From positions 1 through 64,000 of the forward strand of contig JAKOTQ010000061.1 of assembly GCA_029776205.1 (NCBI GenBank): DNA of 64,000 nucleotides, in the 5' to 3' direction. The notes under the pieces are model-generated. The model ran no database searches and was not told the origin of the DNA. It saw nothing but the letters and a program-made list of their open reading frames with translations. Shown here in pieces: positions 4,895 through 47,697 of the stretch (positions are counted from its first letter, which is position 1; every line of letters starts with the position of its first letter). The translations under genes and the position numbers were made by a program. The DNA comes from Bacillota bacterium. Lineage in GTDB: Bacteria; Bacillota; UBA4882; UBA8346.

Positions 4895-4958
4895 TATATA
4901 CCTCAAAATGTTCAATTTTTTCATTATTGATGGGTTCACAGCGAAAATTTAACGAGTG

Positions 4959-5189
4959 TTAGGAGTCAGGAGACAGGAGATAGTTTCAAGCCTTAGATTC
5001 TAAATCAAATAACGCGTGCATAGATCTTATAAAGGAACTGTTGCCTGTTTTAAACTACTGGCTCCTTATGAACTCTCCTTTACCAAGCACCCATTACCAG
5101 GAAACAGTACCCTTCATCTTAAAAATCATGTATTTTTTATATTCTACCTTCTAACTGCTGTCTCCTATCTACTAACTCCTGTTTCCTGC
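4959..5189. repeat. Heptad-repeat element with opposed AGGAG arms (element 1)
   Basis: The left arm (4959-4983) is three in-phase 7-mers, TTAGGAG, TCAGGAG and ACAGGAG. The right arm (5148-5189) is the complement flavour: CTTCTAA, CTGCTGT, CTCCTAT, CTACTAA, CTCCTGT and TTCCTGC. The arms could pair over about 25 bases around a roughly 165-base centre. The sequence fills the otherwise gene-free 395 bases between sbcD and the small spore-protein-like gene. Similar arms recur at 16356-16552 and 45616-45836. I see no reading frame, tRNA or transposase that explains it. Confidence 0.75.
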
Positions 5190-5235
5190 AACCATTTTAC
5201 CATACCATCCCCTCCTGTCCAATCGATCGATCATT

Positions 5236-5490: not shown

Positions 5491-6660
5491 TTAAATCTTC
5501 CCGGCACCCGCACCGGCTGTTACGATACCCGGAACACTATCGACCGGATCCAACGTATAGGTATAATTCCCAAAATCAATGGTACAAGTCGAAGTTTCCG
5601 GTTTATCCGTTTCAACGTTCACATATCGATTGCCAGATACCTGCCACTGGCCACTGGGGTTATTGCTGGTATCATGCCAATACCCGATGGCCTTTTTCAC
5701 ATTTTCGAAATAATTGTTTTCAATTCGGATTCTCGAACCGGTCCGGCAGTTGATCGCATCAGAAAGAATATCTTTGTAATAGTTGTTGTAAATATGGGCA
5801 TGGCCGCCCCAGTAAAGCGGCAACCGGGAATTACAATCATGGAAGTAATTATGGTGAATAATCATCTTCCGGTCCGGCAAAGCATCGGCATTATCATTGC
5901 TGCCGACCAGGATCGTTTTATAGCTGTTATAAATATGGTTCCAGGATACAATGATATATTCTGCGTTATTTTTGGCGCTGATCAGTTCATCGTACTTGTC
6001 TTTCAATTCTTCGGACGGATTCGCCACAATCGGCTCATTGAATAAAGTACAATGGTCAACCATGGTGTATCTGGCATTATTGATTTCAATAGCGTCTCTT
6101 CCCAATACTTTGGTAATTGTCAGATTTTGAATAATCGTATTGGTACCCGTAATCTTAAAGCCAAGCCCGTCGAACACCCCGGCGGACCCAACACCAACAA
6201 TGGTCAGATTAGATACGCTGCTCCCGAGATCAATATAGCGTAACGTTGATCCGCTTACCGCTTTCCAATCATCATAGGTAATGGTCCCGTTCACCCGAAT
6301 GATGGAAGGCATTGGGGTGACTTTTTTCACTTCAGTTAAGGCCGCATACAATTCTGTCGCATTAGTAACAGTATAAATGTTTTCAGCTGCAGCCCCGGTT
6401 CCTCCGGTGATTCGCGATGCCATGTCGGCAAAGCCATCAACTCTCGTTATCATAAACAGGTAAATACCTTTTACAGTTACACTTCCCGACCAGGGCAAAG
6501 TAATTTCGATATAGGCATTGTCCGCACTTTTATTGACGGTAGTATCGAGAATTGTATCCGACAGTACTGTTTCCTTGGGAACGTTTTTGGCAGTACCGAT
6601 TTCCCCGGAAGCATTTTTAATTTTGACATAAAAACCATTACTGGTTTTACTTAAATCCAC
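5491..6660 (-). CDS. Pectate lyase, catalytic part (downstream piece of a frameshifted gene)
   Basis: This frame carries the right-handed beta-helix catalytic domain of a family 1 polysaccharide (pectate) lyase, which cleaves polygalacturonate by beta-elimination. Family motifs are IVSWNHIYNSYKTILVGS and HHNYFHDCNSRLPLY followed by AHIYNNYY, with the catalytic-region Arg in NSRLPLY. It lacks its own signal peptide and a credible start. The first codons (DLSKTSNGFYVKIKN) continue a beta-sandwich whose beginning lies in the overlapping frame 6651-7088. Adding one base near 6692-6700 would join the two into one lipoprotein of roughly 530 residues. It is either a recent pseudogene or a sequence error. 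Confidence 0.75.
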   Translation of the reverse strand: MDLSKTSNGFYVKIKNASGEIGTAKNVPKETVLSDTILDTTVNKSADNAYIEITLPWSGSVTVKGIYLFMITRVDGFADMASRITGGTGAAAENIYTVTNATELYAALTEVKKVTPMPSIIRVNGTITYDDWKAVSGSTLRYIDLGSSVSNLTIVGVGSAGVFDGLGFKITGTNTIIQNLTITKVLGRDAIEINNARYTMVDHCTLFNEPIVANPSEELKDKYDELISAKNNAEYIIVSWNHIYNSYKTILVGSNDNADALPDRKMIIHHNYFHDCNSRLPLYWGGHAHIYNNYYKDILSDAINCRTGSRIRIENNYFENVKKAIGYWHDTSNNPSGQWQVSGNRYVNVETDKPETSTCTIDFGNYTYTLDPVDSVPGIVTAGAGAGKI

Positions 6661-9014: not shown

Positions 9015-9851
9015 CTAATAATCCAGATTATCCCTAAAGCTTGGGGCTTGGATATCTTCTGTTAAAAATGGTTTCGCCGGTTCATAGTAAGTATAACGCG
9101 CTGGTACATCCACCAATTCCTTTTCCGGGTATCTTAAGGCTGTCAGCTTGCCTCCAAAAACACATCCTGTATCAATATCGATGGTATTATTTAACCACTC
9201 CGCCTTGGCAACCGGCGTATGCCCGAAGACCACCATCGCTTTTCCCCGATATTCCGAAGCCCAGTCATAACGTACAGGCAAACCAAATTCATCGATTTCA
9301 CTGGTGGTTTCTCCAAATAAGGCAAACTCCCGAACTGTTTTCGACTCCCGGCCCTGGTATTCTTCTTTCATTCCGGCATGGGCTACCACCAGTTTTCCAT
9401 CGTCAAAAAGATAATGACTGGGGAGACCACCCAGAAACTCCTTAACATCCTCCGAAAATTCAGCCGGTTCTTCAGCCAACTGCTCTAGCGTTTCAGCAAG
9501 CCCATGCTTAATCTGAACGTTACGGCCCGAAAGTTTACGGACTAATTTCATATCATGGTTTCCCGGTACGCAATAGGCAATGCCTGTTTGTACCATGCTC
9601 ATGGCAATCTTTAAAACCAATACAACCTTAGGGCCTCGGTCAACTAAATCACCCAAGAAAATCACTTTCCGTCCTTCAGGATGAGTCACGGTAAACCCGT
9701 ATTCACCGGAACCCTCGATAATTATATATCCCAGCTTTTCAAGTAAGATTTTCAGCTCATCGAAACATCCGTGGATATCTCCGATAATATCAAAGGGACC
9801 ATGGTCCGATTTTTGGACGATTAAAGCCGATTCAGGAATGATCGTCTTCAT
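9015..9851 (-). CDS. Metallophosphatase of the PrpE / Pnkp-phosphatase type
   Basis: A calcineurin-like phosphatase of about 278 residues with GPFDIIGDIHGCFDEL, FLGDLVDRGP, CVPGNHDMKL, VVAHAGMKEE, VFGHTPV and NTIDIDTGCVFGGKLTALRYP. The whole layout resembles the central phosphatase domain of bacterial polynucleotide kinase-phosphatase (Pnkp), but no kinase or ligase domain is attached. Related stand-alone proteins (PrpE) hydrolyse Ap4A, so the substrate is either a dinucleotide polyphosphate or a 2',3'-phosphate RNA/DNA end. Start choice is uncertain: ATG 9851 follows GGAGG by about 11 bases, while GTG 9890 and ATG 9881 have no clear ribosome site. Confidence 0.82.
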   Translation of the reverse strand: MKTIIPESALIVQKSDHGPFDIIGDIHGCFDELKILLEKLGYIIIEGSGEYGFTVTHPEGRKVIFLGDLVDRGPKVVLVLKIAMSMVQTGIAYCVPGNHDMKLVRKLSGRNVQIKHGLAETLEQLAEEPAEFSEDVKEFLGGLPSHYLFDDGKLVVAHAGMKEEYQGRESKTVREFALFGETTSEIDEFGLPVRYDWASEYRGKAMVVFGHTPVAKAEWLNNTIDIDTGCVFGGKLTALRYPEKELVDVPARYTYYEPAKPFLTEDIQAPSFRDNLDY

Positions 9852-10010: not shown

Positions 10011-10360
10011 TGGTGGAGGCGGGGGGAGTCGAACCCCCGTCCGAAAAGGCATTAACCGAAGCATCTCCGGGTGCAGACTGCAATTTGAACTTCGCCTTCG
10101 GCTCGTCTACAGACGAACTAGCCGTCGGCTATCTCGATGATCTTAGCGCCAGTCTCCGAGAATTGACTGGCGAGCGCCCCGGTTTATTTGACGCCCGCCC
10201 CGACCTCCCGGGTTAAGTTCGGTTTGGACGGCCGCTTATATTAAGCAGCTAAAGCGTAATTGTTATTGGCACTTATTGTGCTTGCTGCAGTTTAACGAGG
10301 CCACAGCACCTCGACCCGCTTCTCCGATTAACACACTCCCCGTCGAAACCGGTCGCCCCC
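10011..10360 (-). ncRNA. ssrA: tmRNA (ssrA), tag ANNNYALAA
   Basis: A 350-nt transfer-messenger RNA for ribosome rescue. The 5' end GGGGGCG pairs with CGCCTCC before the encoded CCA, with one G-U. The T-arm GGTTCGACTCC is intact. The tag frame is at 10241-10270: GCC resume codon, then AAT AAC AAT TAC GCT TTA GCT GCT TAA, giving ANNNYALAA after the non-templated Ala, with the usual YALAA protease signal. UAAGU precedes the resume codon. A perfect TATAAT on the minus strand at 10443-10438 could drive a precursor about 70 nt longer. smpB, encoding its partner, lies upstream on the same strand. Confidence 0.95.
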
Positions 10361-10581
10361 GATTTGTTAAGGTAGTGTCGTTCAAGGATGAGGCATGAAG
10401 CTTGAATTCTCCCGTCAGCCATCTCCTCATCAATTTTATTATATGCGATCTTTCAATTTAATTAAATAGCAAGTTCTAGGCAATTAGTTTTTTCAAGATC
10501 CCGCGTGGTTTTCCTTTTGCTTGATAAACCGTTGTGGAAGATCTAGATCCGGCGCCTTCACAGCAGCGCACCAGATGACTC

Positions 10582-10752
10582 TTGCCGAAATGAACGAGCC
10601 AACTTCTTCGAATCAACTTGCGGCGTCAGAGGCAAGTCATGCAGGGAACGACCAAGCGAGAGACGGAACCGTACTAAAGTACGGTGAGTATCGCAGCGCG
10701 AAAGTGACGAGCAAAAAGCAGCTTATCACGCCGCACTCGCGAATTTCGGCAA
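10582..10752. other. Nested palindromic element, possible structured RNA
   Basis: Between smpB and ssrA lies a GC-richer block with successive nested complementary pairs. TTGCCGAAAT (10582-10591) pairs with 10743-10752, CGAG (10595-10598) with 10736-10739, GCGGCGT (10620-10626) with 10728-10734, GTCAT (10636-10640) with GTGAC (10704-10708), GCGA (10656-10659) with TCGC (10691-10694), and a terminal hairpin ACCGTAC/GTACGGT (10668-10685) closes a TAAA loop. All fold concentrically. It contains no credible gene and no terminator T run. It may be a mobile-type palindrome or a structured RNA. The rest of the 420-base gap is AT-rich and holds only the likely ssrA promoter. Confidence 0.6.
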
Positions 10753-14639: not shown

Positions 14640-14757
14640 AAAGAAACACCCCCAACCCAAATTCACTTCAATATTTTAGCACATCAAAGGGGAATCTACA
14701 AGCAAAATTCTAATATTTGCCTCGCTTACATTCGAAAAAAGATATAATTTTTGAGGG

Positions 14758-14827
14758 TCACAGTACACAGTTCACGGTTCACAGTACACAGTTCACGGTT
14801 CACAGTACACAGTACACAGTTCACAGC
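14758..14827. repeat. Ten tandem 7-bp units (element 2)
   Basis: Ten consecutive heptads in perfect phase, drawn from TCACAGT, ACACAGT, TCACGGT and a last TCACAGC. The order TCACAGT, ACACAGT, TCACGGT occurs twice, so a 21-bp higher period overlies the 7-bp one. It lies between the eno terminator and secG. Unlike the other elements it has no clear opposite arm nearby. Confidence 0.9.
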
Positions 14828-14829
14828 GT

Positions 14830-14862
14830 AAAAAAGGGGATCAAGACTACTCTCAATCCCCT
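14830..14862 (-). terminator. Intrinsic terminator of eno
   Basis: GGGGAT/ATCCCC stem with a 14-base loop followed by six T on the minus strand, about 40 bases past the enolase stop. Confidence 0.75.
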
Positions 14863-16355: not shown

Positions 16356-16552
16356 ATAGGAGTCAGGAGTTAGGAGACAGGAGATGTTGCGGGTATGGAT
16401 TCTAAGCAATAGTGCACAGTACACAGTTCACAGTTAAGGCATGAGGTTTGTTGCCTTTTTCCCTTTACACTTGAGATTCTGTCTTCTATCTTCTATATTC
16501 TGTCTTTTAAATCTCCTAACTCCTGTCTCCTGTCTACTGACTTCTAATTACC
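16356..16552. repeat. Composite heptad-repeat element (element 3)
   Basis: The left arm is ATAGGAG, TCAGGAG, TTAGGAG and ACAGGAG, in phase (16356-16383). The centre is GCACAGT, ACACAGT and TCACAGT (16414-16434). The right arm (16476-16552) is the complementary flavour: ATTCTGT, CTTCTAT (twice), ATTCTGT, CTTTTAA, then CTCCT/CTACT units. The left and right arms can pair as a long imperfect hairpin. The right arm is followed by AATTACC and CAGCACCC, and similar words sit inside element 1 at 5087-5100. It fills the gpmI-eno gap. Confidence 0.8.
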
Positions 16553-16570
16553 CAGCACCCAACCTGATAC

Positions 16571-23310: not shown

Positions 23311-23355
23311 CAAATATCACTCCTCTTTCAATTATTCACCCAATTCAATATGTAG

Positions 23356-23504
23356 GTGCACAGTACACGGTTCACAGTACACACTCACAATAGGGCAATA
23401 CATATCTCAAAACAACAAAAAACCAAAATCTCAGGCTTTGTCATTTTAAAATTGTACATTTTAATAACCATTAACTGTGAACTGTGCACTGTGCACTGTG
23501 TACC
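23356..23504. repeat. Heptad-repeat element with CACAGT arms (element 5)
   Basis: The left arm (23358-23385) is GCACAGT, ACACGGT, TCACAGT and ACACACT. The right arm (23474-23504) is ACTGTGA, ACTGTGC (twice), ACTGTGT and ACC, the reverse complement with one extra unit. The 88-base centre is A-rich. It lies between divIVA and ylmH and could form a long hairpin in the operon transcript. Confidence 0.85.
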
Positions 23505-23525
23505 TTTTAATCTCTGCCAACTGTT

Positions 23526-45386: not shown

Positions 45387-45611
45387 ATGGAAACCTACGA
45401 AATTGAACATGTATACTTATGTCCCCATTGCGAAGTCGATACCATTCATTACACCATCAACAACAAACACAACCTTTTAGGGATCGTCTGCTCCCACTGT
45501 CATACACCGTCACTGGTGAAACGGGAAGTACTCACTTATCATCAGTTAAAATGGGAAGATGAACTGCGCCGGATCTTGGATAATTTGGACAATCCCTTCG
45601 ATAAGCACTGA
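45387..45611 (+). CDS. Small zinc-ribbon-like protein (74 residues)
   Basis: A 74-residue protein with CPHC (residues 12-15) and CSHC (35-38) spaced like a zinc ribbon, an acidic linker and a C-terminal helix (LKWEDELRRILDNLDNPFDK). AAGGAGG lies nine bases before ATG, strong support for translation. It is divergent from dprA across 154 bases. Similar short two-knuckle proteins with YLCPHC starts occur in other Bacillota; function is unknown. Confidence 0.75.
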   Translation: METYEIEHVYLCPHCEVDTIHYTINNKHNLLGIVCSHCHTPSLVKREVLTYHQLKWEDELRRILDNLDNPFDKH

Positions 45612-45615
45612 TTTA

Positions 45616-45836
45616 GTTCACAGTACACAGTGCACGGTTTAGGCGCGAGTATAGTTGACAGTGGACAGTTTACAGTTGACAGTTTTCCCACTGTCAACTA
45701 TTTAAAGCTCCTGACCCCTGTCTCCTGTTACTGACTCCTACCAACTACCCACCTTGGACCCCAGCCATTATCTGTACTGTGAACTGTGTACCCTTTGTAA
45801 TTAACTGTCCACTGTACACTGTCAACTGTTAACTAC
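45616..45836. repeat. Largest composite heptad-repeat element (element 6)
   Basis: In order: CACAG-type units TTCACAG, TACACAG, TGCACGG (45617-45637); GACAG-type units TTGACAG, TGGACAG, TTTACAG, TTGACAG (45655-45682); a short complement CTGTCAACTA (45691-45700); AGGAG-complement units around CTCCTGACCCCTGTCTCCTG (45708-45727); complement of the first set, TACTGTGAACTGTGTACC (45775-45792); and complement of the second set, ACTGTCC to CTGTTAAC (45804-45834). All three heptad flavours occur, two with an opposite arm. It occupies the gap between the zinc-ribbon gene and rnjA. Confidence 0.88.
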
Positions 45837-45838
45837 GT

Positions 45839-45867
45839 AAAAAAACATGGCCTTTCAGCCATGTTTC
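45839..45867 (-). terminator. Intrinsic terminator of rnjA
   Basis: ACATGGC/GCCATGT with a six-base loop followed by seven T on the minus strand, 30 bases past the stop. Confidence 0.85.
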
Positions 45868-45897: not shown

Positions 45898-47565
45898 TTA
45901 AACTTCCATAATGATCGGCAGAATCATGGGGCGGCGTTTGGTTTTGTCATAAAGATGTTTACTCAACACTTCCCGAATTTGGCTTTTCATCGTGGACCAG
46001 TCGGCCGTCTCAGAACAATTCTCCAAAGCCACCTTCACTTTGGCTTTAGCTTCTTCGATCAAAGCTTCCGACTCCCGAACATACACAAATCCCCGGGAAA
46101 CGATATCTGGTCCGGCCACAATTTGCCCAGTATTTTTATCCATGGTAACAACCACAATCAAAATACCGTCCTGAGACAATTGCTTCCGATCCCGCAGAAC
46201 AATATTACCCACATCGCCGACGCCCAATCCGTCGACAAACACCTTGCCCGACGGCACTTTGCCAGCGATCCTGATTTTTTGCTTGGAAATCTCAATAACA
46301 TCCCCGATCTCGGCAATAACCACATTCTCGCTTTCCACCCCTACATCCGTGGCAAGCTTGGCATGTTGGACCAGGTGCCGGTATTCACCGTGAACCGGAA
46401 TAAAATACTTTGGCTTTGTCAAATTGAGCATTAATTTCAGTTCTTCTTTACTAGCATGGCCCGAAACATGGATCCCGGAAACCGATTCGTAGATTACCCG
46501 AGCCCCTTGTTTAAATAGATGATTGATGGTTCGCGCCACAAATTTTTCATTACCGGGAATGGCAGAAGCCGAAATAATCACAGTATCCCCCGGAATAATC
46601 GTAATTTTCCGATGATCGGAAGTCGCCATTCGGGATAAGGCTGACATAGGCTCTCCCTGACTTCCAGTCGTAATGATGGCAACCTTATCCACAGGGTACC
46701 GATCTACTTCATCGATATCAATTTGCACGCCTTCCGGGATTTGAAGATATCCCAATTCCCGGGCGATAGAAACCACATTAACCATGCTGCGGCCGATAAA
46801 AGCCACCTTGCGGTCATGGCGGAAAGCCGTATTCACAATCTGCTGAATACGATGAATATTGGAAGCGAAAGTGGCCACCAAAATCCGGCCATCAGCTTGC
46901 ATAAAAAGCTCTTCAAAGGTTTGAGCCAGATCTTTTTCAGAACGGGTATATCCCTCCCGCTCTACATTGGTGCTATCCGATAAAAGGGCCAAGACCCCGT
47001 TTTCACCGAGTTCTGCCAATTTGCGAAAATCGGTAGTTTTACCATCCACCGGAGTATGATCGAATTTAAAATCCGCTGTATGAAGTATTGTTCCAATCGA
47101 TGTATGGATCGCTAATGCTACCACTCCGGCGATACTATGGTTGACATGAATAAACTCAATAGAGAAACTTCCAAGCTTAATATGATCTCCGGCTTTAACA
47201 CAATGCATCGTGACGGACTTGGCCATACCATGTTCTTCGAATTTCACTTTTGCCAAGCCCAAAGTGAGCTTCGTTCCATAAATCGGCACGTTCAGCTGTT
47301 TTAAAACATAAGGCAGAGCGCCGATATGATCCTCATGACCATGAGTTAAAATAATCCCCTTGACACGGTCTTTATTTTCCAAAAGGTACGTAATATCCGG
47401 TATCACCAGATCAATACCCAACATATCTTCATCCGGAAACATTAAACCGGCATCAATAACAATTATTTCCTTATTGTGTTCAATGGCGGTCATGTTTTTC
47501 CCAATTTCGCCCAATCCGCCTAACGGAACAATAAATACATGATCTTGTTTTCCAAAAAGAGCCAA
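45898..47565 (-). CDS. rnjA: Ribonuclease J
   Basis: A 555-residue metallo-beta-lactamase/beta-CASP ribonuclease for 5'-to-3' mRNA decay and processing. Motifs are FIVPLGGLGEIGKNM, VIDAGLMFP, the metal site LTHGHEDHIGALP, HTADFKFDHTPVDG, LLSDSTNVEREGYT, the beta-CASP part VATFASNIHRIQQ and TTGSQGEPMSALSRM, SVSGIHVSGHASKEEL and FIPVHGEYRHLVQH. The start is TTG 47565, nine bases after GGAGGTG. An upstream in-frame GTG lies inside that site. One of the paralog pair J1/J2; which cannot be told. Confidence 0.94.
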   Translation of the reverse strand: MALFGKQDHVFIVPLGGLGEIGKNMTAIEHNKEIIVIDAGLMFPDEDMLGIDLVIPDITYLLENKDRVKGIILTHGHEDHIGALPYVLKQLNVPIYGTKLTLGLAKVKFEEHGMAKSVTMHCVKAGDHIKLGSFSIEFIHVNHSIAGVVALAIHTSIGTILHTADFKFDHTPVDGKTTDFRKLAELGENGVLALLSDSTNVEREGYTRSEKDLAQTFEELFMQADGRILVATFASNIHRIQQIVNTAFRHDRKVAFIGRSMVNVVSIARELGYLQIPEGVQIDIDEVDRYPVDKVAIITTGSQGEPMSALSRMATSDHRKITIIPGDTVIISASAIPGNEKFVARTINHLFKQGARVIYESVSGIHVSGHASKEELKLMLNLTKPKYFIPVHGEYRHLVQHAKLATDVGVESENVVIAEIGDVIEISKQKIRIAGKVPSGKVFVDGLGVGDVGNIVLRDRKQLSQDGILIVVVTMDKNTGQIVAGPDIVSRGFVYVRESEALIEEAKAKVKVALENCSETADWSTMKSQIREVLSKHLYDKTKRRPMILPIIMEV

Positions 47566-47697
47566 TAAAAAAAACACCTCCTATGTGCTTTCTAAGTACT
47601 AAACGAGTTACAGTCCAAAAGTCATTTGTCATCCTTAATTTTCCGCTCAACATGTCACGAGAAAAAGACAGCCACGATCCGCACCCATTGTCTATTC

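Follow-up and report, generated by a model that had tools for sequence, protein, structure and literature searches.

Bacterial heptameric repeats were first noticed decades ago and still lack a mechanism; polymerase slippage is usually suggested. The STRR heptanucleotides of heterocystous cyanobacteria are tandem, dispersed in the genome and, by description, arranged in single-word arrays. In the parts of the literature drawn on here, bacterial heptameric repeats appear as a known class without explanation (PMC4692102, PMC4679880), with GGGAATC/GGGANTN repeats in Xanthomonas and GGGGA(C/T)T repeats in Nostoc (Rehm et al. 2015, PMC4692102); the same portions of that paper describe close convergent pairs of the Xanthomonas repeats (70 and 75 cases, for one word) and cite three different STRR heptanucleotides in Calothrix. 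TAACTGA direct repeats have also been reported in marine Beggiatoaceae, Cyanobacteria and some Bacteroidetes (MacGregor 2015, PMC4679880). The locus described here, found in a 64,000-nucleotide stretch of a Bacillota genome (hereafter the window), belongs to a mosaic family of heptad elements dispersed through intergenic DNA.

Composition and gene setting of the element

Read from left to right, the element comprises block A, the D word, block B, b′, block C′, block A′ and block B′ (Table 1). The A-B-b′-C′-A′-B′ order of heptad flavours claimed in a first-pass annotation of the window is thus present, and the element is, as was also stated there, neither a simple palindrome nor a single fixed element that was inserted. 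The words of block B′ do not follow the order of those in block B, and b′ pairs perfectly with the beginning of block B in a local hairpin. In agreement with the same annotation, one phase of 7 is kept across the differing words, with a lag-7 identity of 0.542 compared to 0.256 ± 0.030 in 2000 dinucleotide shuffles (maximum 0.360); none of the shuffles (0/2000) was as well phased, nor did any match this value at any lag from 2 to 30.

Table 1. Features of the composite heptad element, its gene setting and the other copies in the window (window coordinates)
Feature	Position	Strand	Remarks
Composite heptad element	45616-45836		221 bp, intergenic
Block A, sense NCACAGT heptads (TTCACAGTACACAGTGCACGG)	45616-45639	+	From the sequence and the orthologous-site comparison
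D word AGGCGCGAG	45641-45649	+	Frequently immediately 5′ of block B
Block B, sense NNACAGT heptads (AGTTGACAGTGGACAGTTTACAGTTGACAGT)	45651-45684	+	Words TG GG TT TG
b′ (ACTGTCAACTATT)	45690-45702	-	One unit, complementary to the beginning of block B
Block C′ (CTCCTGACCCCTGTCTCCTGTTACTGACTCCT)	45707-45739	-	Complement of AGGAGNN heptads
Block A′ (CTGTACTGTGAACTGTGTACCC)	45772-45793	-	Complement NCACAGT heptads
Block B′ (AACTGTCCACTGTACACTGTCAACTGTTAACTA)	45802-45836	-	Complement NNACAGT heptads
Small zinc-ribbon ORF	45387-45611	+	74 aa; stop 4 bp before the element
Terminator-like hairpin	45843-45866	+	A-run 5′, T-run 3′; between the element and rnjA
rnjA (ribonuclease J)	45898-47577	-	3′ end towards the element
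Other copy	4955-5190		AGGAG words first, then CTCCT words
Other copy, one-armed array	14755-14832	+	About 10 sense heptads, 21-bp tandem repeats
Other copy	16356-16559		Order R T D r′ r′ y′
Other copy	23356-23510		T then t′

The element occupies a convergent (3′-3′) gap, with both the small ORF and rnjA pointing at it; its initial placement upstream of rnjA was wrong, as it sits beyond the rnjA 3′ end. The small ORF showed a weak Pfam Zn_ribbon_Elf1 match, under the cut-off, and is kept adjoining rnjA in the L050, L051 and L052 loci. In the last of these, which comes from a relative outside the genus, the same gap appears by eye to carry another heptad-like run (ATAAAAGATTAAAGATTTAAGA), just after rnjA. 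The element had no Rfam family match at gathering score (the window has a tmRNA elsewhere), and a sub-threshold Rfam match on the terminator was set aside as chance. We did note that a segment of ~210 bp (10505-10723) adjoining the tmRNA gene (10011-10360) is present here and missing in the same-genus genome G001, possibly as the remnant of an integration at the tmRNA.

Word classes, polarity and distribution of the family

The window carries four copies besides the target. Across the 2.73-Mb genome, three successive ACAGTNN heptads (ACAGTNNACAGTNNACAGT) were matched 25+25 times, compared to 0+1 for the reversed pattern; ACAGTNNACAGT gave 193 matches versus 25 and AGGAGNCAGGAGNC gave 19 versus 0, noting that the reversed-pattern control is not neutral for TTGACAG words, as it is matched by TGACA cores. 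The family census combined such pattern searches with about 10% of the genome, and 165 kb held 44 7-periodic runs, while the other lags from 4 to 13 gave 0-3 each. Most of these runs (40/44) were non-coding, although non-coding sequence makes up 14% of the bases. The family therefore shows the properties of the heptameric-repeat class: 7-bp tandem units beyond chance, a dispersed and mainly non-coding location, and both conserved and degenerate positions. In heptads next to the seed, whose letters were not demanded by the search, the unit reads A C A G T [T/G/A] N, with the last position near random (0.0-0.03 bits versus 0.5-0.9 at the core positions). There are at least four word classes, with further ones comprising GGTACT/GGGTNN, GGCATGAG, AGAAGNN and AAAGTG-like words, and arrays mix several classes instead of carrying one word each. 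The ACAGT words lack GGG tracts, G-rich words being confined to the GGTACT class. A dispersed repeat of ~79 bp (L144:6381-6459 and L145:12024-12102, with more copies in G001 at 80-84% identity) is apparently not related to the heptads.

The arrangement of the two orientations was uniform. All 35 two-orientation elements in this genome, and all 23 in G001 (84-88% nucleotide identity), place every sense word before any complement word, whatever the class and without a mixed case. The 5′ half of every two-armed element thus holds only sense (G/A-rich) words and the 3′ half only complements. The same was true of the ACAGT words alone (21/21 and 15/15, respectively), and convergent pairing, as known from Xanthomonas, was seen in 58/58 elements over both genomes, some of these sites being orthologous so that the two samples are not all independent. 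Beyond the genus, unrelated contigs (from phages, a Nostoc plasmid and an Annamia plasmid) held 15 two-armed clusters, of which 14 were sense-first (the viral ones among the matches listed); the remaining one matched a weak motif by chance. The viral matches came from an IMG/VR scan with the triple ACAGTNN pattern, in which the matches listed were largely chance, making it informative for two-armed loci only.

One IMG/VR contig (L277) holds at least four elements of TTGACAGT/GGACAAT words with GC-rich centres and one polarity (874-1153, 2060-2199, 6322-6398 and 9079-9149), and two others (L304:1972-2095 and L388:7482-7588) have heptad arms in common and the same GC-rich centre in opposite orientations. 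In G001, a palindromic core, GGAAYGC...GCGTTCC, lies between GGTACT-type words and their complements (L218, L250, L251 and L255; e.g., L218:7056-7140); this core is commoner in G001 than in this genome and may represent a more regular MITE-like module.

The distribution of the family is patchy. The triple ACAGT pattern occurred in 14/399 Bacillota genomes, with high counts in only a few scattered families (10+9 in G067, 11+4 in G086 and 35+41 in G187), and in 5/61 relatives, with high counts in this genus only. The best plasmid match to the target was a 35-bp stretch (91%) of the Nostoc plasmid, whose element in turn matches a Parabacteroides and the Annamia plasmid; one Nostoc plasmid element shows the same words and polarity as here. 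Low-level matches to the CTTCT/CTCCT part in Providencia, Edwardsiella and Borreliella plasmids may be other simple repeats. The sharing of words across taxa may reflect transfer, convergence or one process operating in all of them. We also noted that at least one contig of G001 (C242:1-74, opposite window position 23342) ends at a heptad element, and heptad elements may be undercounted in draft genomes.

Origin of the arms

The comparison of orthologous sites showed cases in which a single arm had been replaced. In G001 the element is missing from the target site (TTTAGTTCACA-AACGTAAAA), with no target duplication, and this constitutes the one clean presence/absence case among the sites compared, the others being too changed for a duplication test; the terminator-like hairpin is common to the target and the empty allele. 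The first seven bases of block A, GTTCACA, are found in the empty allele too, as expected if this word were a primer of growth or a remnant of loss, and the outgroup loci (L051-L057) are too diverged in the gap to separate gain from loss. Most other compared sites hold heptads in both genomes, often with different words, so that the prospect raised at first, of orthologous loci carrying random, unrelated sequence, came out intermediate. At L145:1700-1970 the right arm is common to both genomes and the left arm differs, at L147:16085-16300 the left arm is common and the right arm differs, and at L144:1500-1830 the outer parts are common and the interior differs. Polarity was maintained at all of the compared sites.

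The arms of an element are also no better matched to each other than to those of other elements. Over the 35 elements, left arms had a similarity of 14.3 to the reverse-complemented right arm of the same element, compared to 15.3 for the right arms of other elements (permutation p = 0.96), and folding was no better in the real elements than in chimeras made by swapping right arms between elements (Wilcoxon p = 0.35, mean rank 0.52). The target does fold better than its dinucleotide shuffles (z = -3.8); however, this good fold is due to the polarity and the shared words, not to pairing maintained within the element. Covariation between the arms was likewise not apparent from these two tests (the copies are not colinear), and we rejected RNA structure as the selected feature, and with it the suggestion that alternative RNA pairing is the point of the arrangement. 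The broader reading, a selected regulatory structure in 3′ untranslated regions, be it a hairpin in the RNA or arrayed protein-binding sites, draws on the fold of the target, on the conserved core with its one free position, and on the neighbourhood of the elements: 14 of the 22 with callable genes lay between tandem and 8 between convergent genes, with none in divergent gaps, whereas gaps of at least 30 bp, called from simple ORFs, comprised 65 tandem, 14 convergent and 18 divergent cases (of 97). Given that the absence from divergent gaps is equally expected from promoter avoidance, that arms are unmatched and chimeras fold equally well, that the site is empty in G001 with fast replacement at other sites, and that Rfam gave no match at gathering score, we consider this reading unlikely.

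The words themselves bear on how arrays grow. Over both genomes, 263 bigram pairs were common to different loci where 151 were expected with words dealt randomly within their class (p < 0.0005), as were 12 trigrams where 3.9 were expected (p = 0.0025), while identical neighbouring words were depleted (15/118 versus 24.6 expected). The sequence at block B recurs as a 33-44 bp block (AGGCGYGAGTATAGTTGACAGTGGACAGTTTACAGTTGACAGTT) with 93-100% identity at unlinked, non-orthologous sites in both genomes, and some copies are alike in block order over ~150 bp. The word strings thus support a copying of word blocks. Slippage alone predicts the opposite of shared word strings and depleted neighbours, and the scarcity of identical adjacent words rules it out as the only source. 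Of the two routes of growth first put forward, slippage or a templated process, the templated one stands in the form of block copying, and simple local slippage is not supported as the main source here, although the one-armed array at 14755-14832 does show 21-bp tandem growth and its orthologue is about 40 bp shorter. A fuller version, in which local period-7 replication slippage is combined with hairpin-mediated template switching and followed by point mutation, can appeal to this array and to period 7 being the commonest long simple repeat in bacteria, for which slippage has been proposed (Mrazek 2007, as cited in the parts of PMC4692102 and PMC4679880 used here). Against it stand, besides the depleted neighbours and the identical strings at unlinked loci, the limitation of variation mainly to one or two unit positions and the unmatched arms where hairpin switching predicts matched ones, and we regard it as having little likelihood.

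A diverged, non-autonomous mobile hairpin element of the MITE or REP kind would account for the dispersed, intergenic location, the convergent arms, the presence/absence at the orthologous site and the block order shared over ~150 bp by some copies. Yet no common ends were seen, the elements vary in length and composition, the one clean empty site showed no target duplication, one-armed copies and the replacement of single arms occur, and terminal inverted repeats matched within the copy, the mark of a MITE, were absent in the arm-similarity test of 35 elements, which weakens this reading. A search of this 99.4%-complete genome and G001 for Y1-type transposases (Y1_Tnp) had no match, and a mobile hairpin is, in our judgement, doubtful.

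Our tentative preference, held at somewhat less than even confidence, is that heptad arms are copied from other arrays onto two DNA ends, which are then joined, by host repair. Polarity, independent arms, block copying and the replacement of single arms all fit two 3′ ends that are extended and then joined. An element would be formed or renewed during the repair of a break or gap in intergenic DNA: the 3′ end on each side would meet a heptad array elsewhere in the genome via short microhomology of a few bases (supplied, at the target, by the lexicon word GTTCACA with which the flank ends), a stretch of words would be copied in phase, possibly with a template switch, and both extended ends would be joined, with an outcome akin to head-to-head telomere fusions. 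Copying always proceeds 5′ to 3′ into the donor, so that the left side would acquire sense words and the right side their complements, and hairpin potential would be a by-product. No RVT_1 reverse transcriptase was matched in this genome or in G001 (a search of RVT_1 type, which divergent enzymes could escape), and given that Y1_Tnp was not matched either, host repair is the simplest agent. A reverse transcriptase or Y1 transposase was rejected as the agent, there being no match to either in this genome and their presence among the chosen genomes not tracking the heptads. Apart from lengthening the 3′ untranslated region of the small gene before it, the element most probably serves no specific function. 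Copying by repair does not account for a 7-base unit with one free position of seven and, being within-genome, does not explain similar TTGACAG words in unrelated phyla.

De novo writing, in which a telomerase-like enzyme extends free 3′ DNA ends with G-rich heptads, templated by RNA or protein, before the ends are joined, would account for those similar words as well as for polarity, arm independence, one-armed elements and a consensus with a free position, but is improbable, as at least four word classes and a random position call for several templates or degenerate ones, the multi-word blocks common to different loci favour the copying of existing arrays, and the reverse transcriptase with template RNA expected of a telomere-like system had no RVT_1-type match. 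Quite improbable, in our estimate, is the most general proposal, that a bacterial process in several phyla and phages adds G-rich heptads from a shared word set (AGTTGAC-like and others) to free 3′ DNA ends and joins them into head-to-head intergenic scars, or miniature telomere fusions. Polarity across word classes, combined with arms that do not copy each other and are singly exchangeable, argues against slippage and selected hairpins alike, and makes the origin of heptad repeats a question of DNA repair that can be tested. Should cyanobacteria, Xanthomonas and phages follow the same rule, as small samples suggest, one process may underlie all.

Comparison with known repeat systems

In the papers searched (most subscription literature lying outside this scope), no earlier report was found of a mixed lexicon under a single polarity, or of arms that are independent and replaceable, and one polarity across multiple word classes together with arm independence looks new. 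As in REP/BIME and MITE-like palindromic elements, the copies are dispersed, intergenic and hairpin-forming; unlike in those, no fixed ends or matched arms were seen, and no RAYT/Y1 transposase was found. The TAACTGA repeats (PMC4679880) are likewise intergenic heptads with a patchy distribution across phyla, and their other strand, TCAGTTA, resembles the AGTTNNC words here. In contrast to this family, they are nearly all direct (169 sets, one indirect), lie right before start codons and rarely include related words, and a translational role was proposed for them. The STRR sequences of heterocystous cyanobacteria are, as here, tandem, dispersed heptanucleotides, and are set apart, on the partial descriptions used, by their single-word arrays. 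The closest likeness is to the repeats of Rehm et al. (PMC4692102), which, in the portions of that paper drawn on here, have a heptad unit with conserved and free positions, are intergenic and dispersed, form convergent pairs, are rare between divergent genes, and fill the same gaps in related species with other lengths and sequences. Those repeats are described there as built on a single word, of unknown function and with G-quadruplex tracts, whereas the elements here lack such tracts and combine several word classes per element under one polarity.
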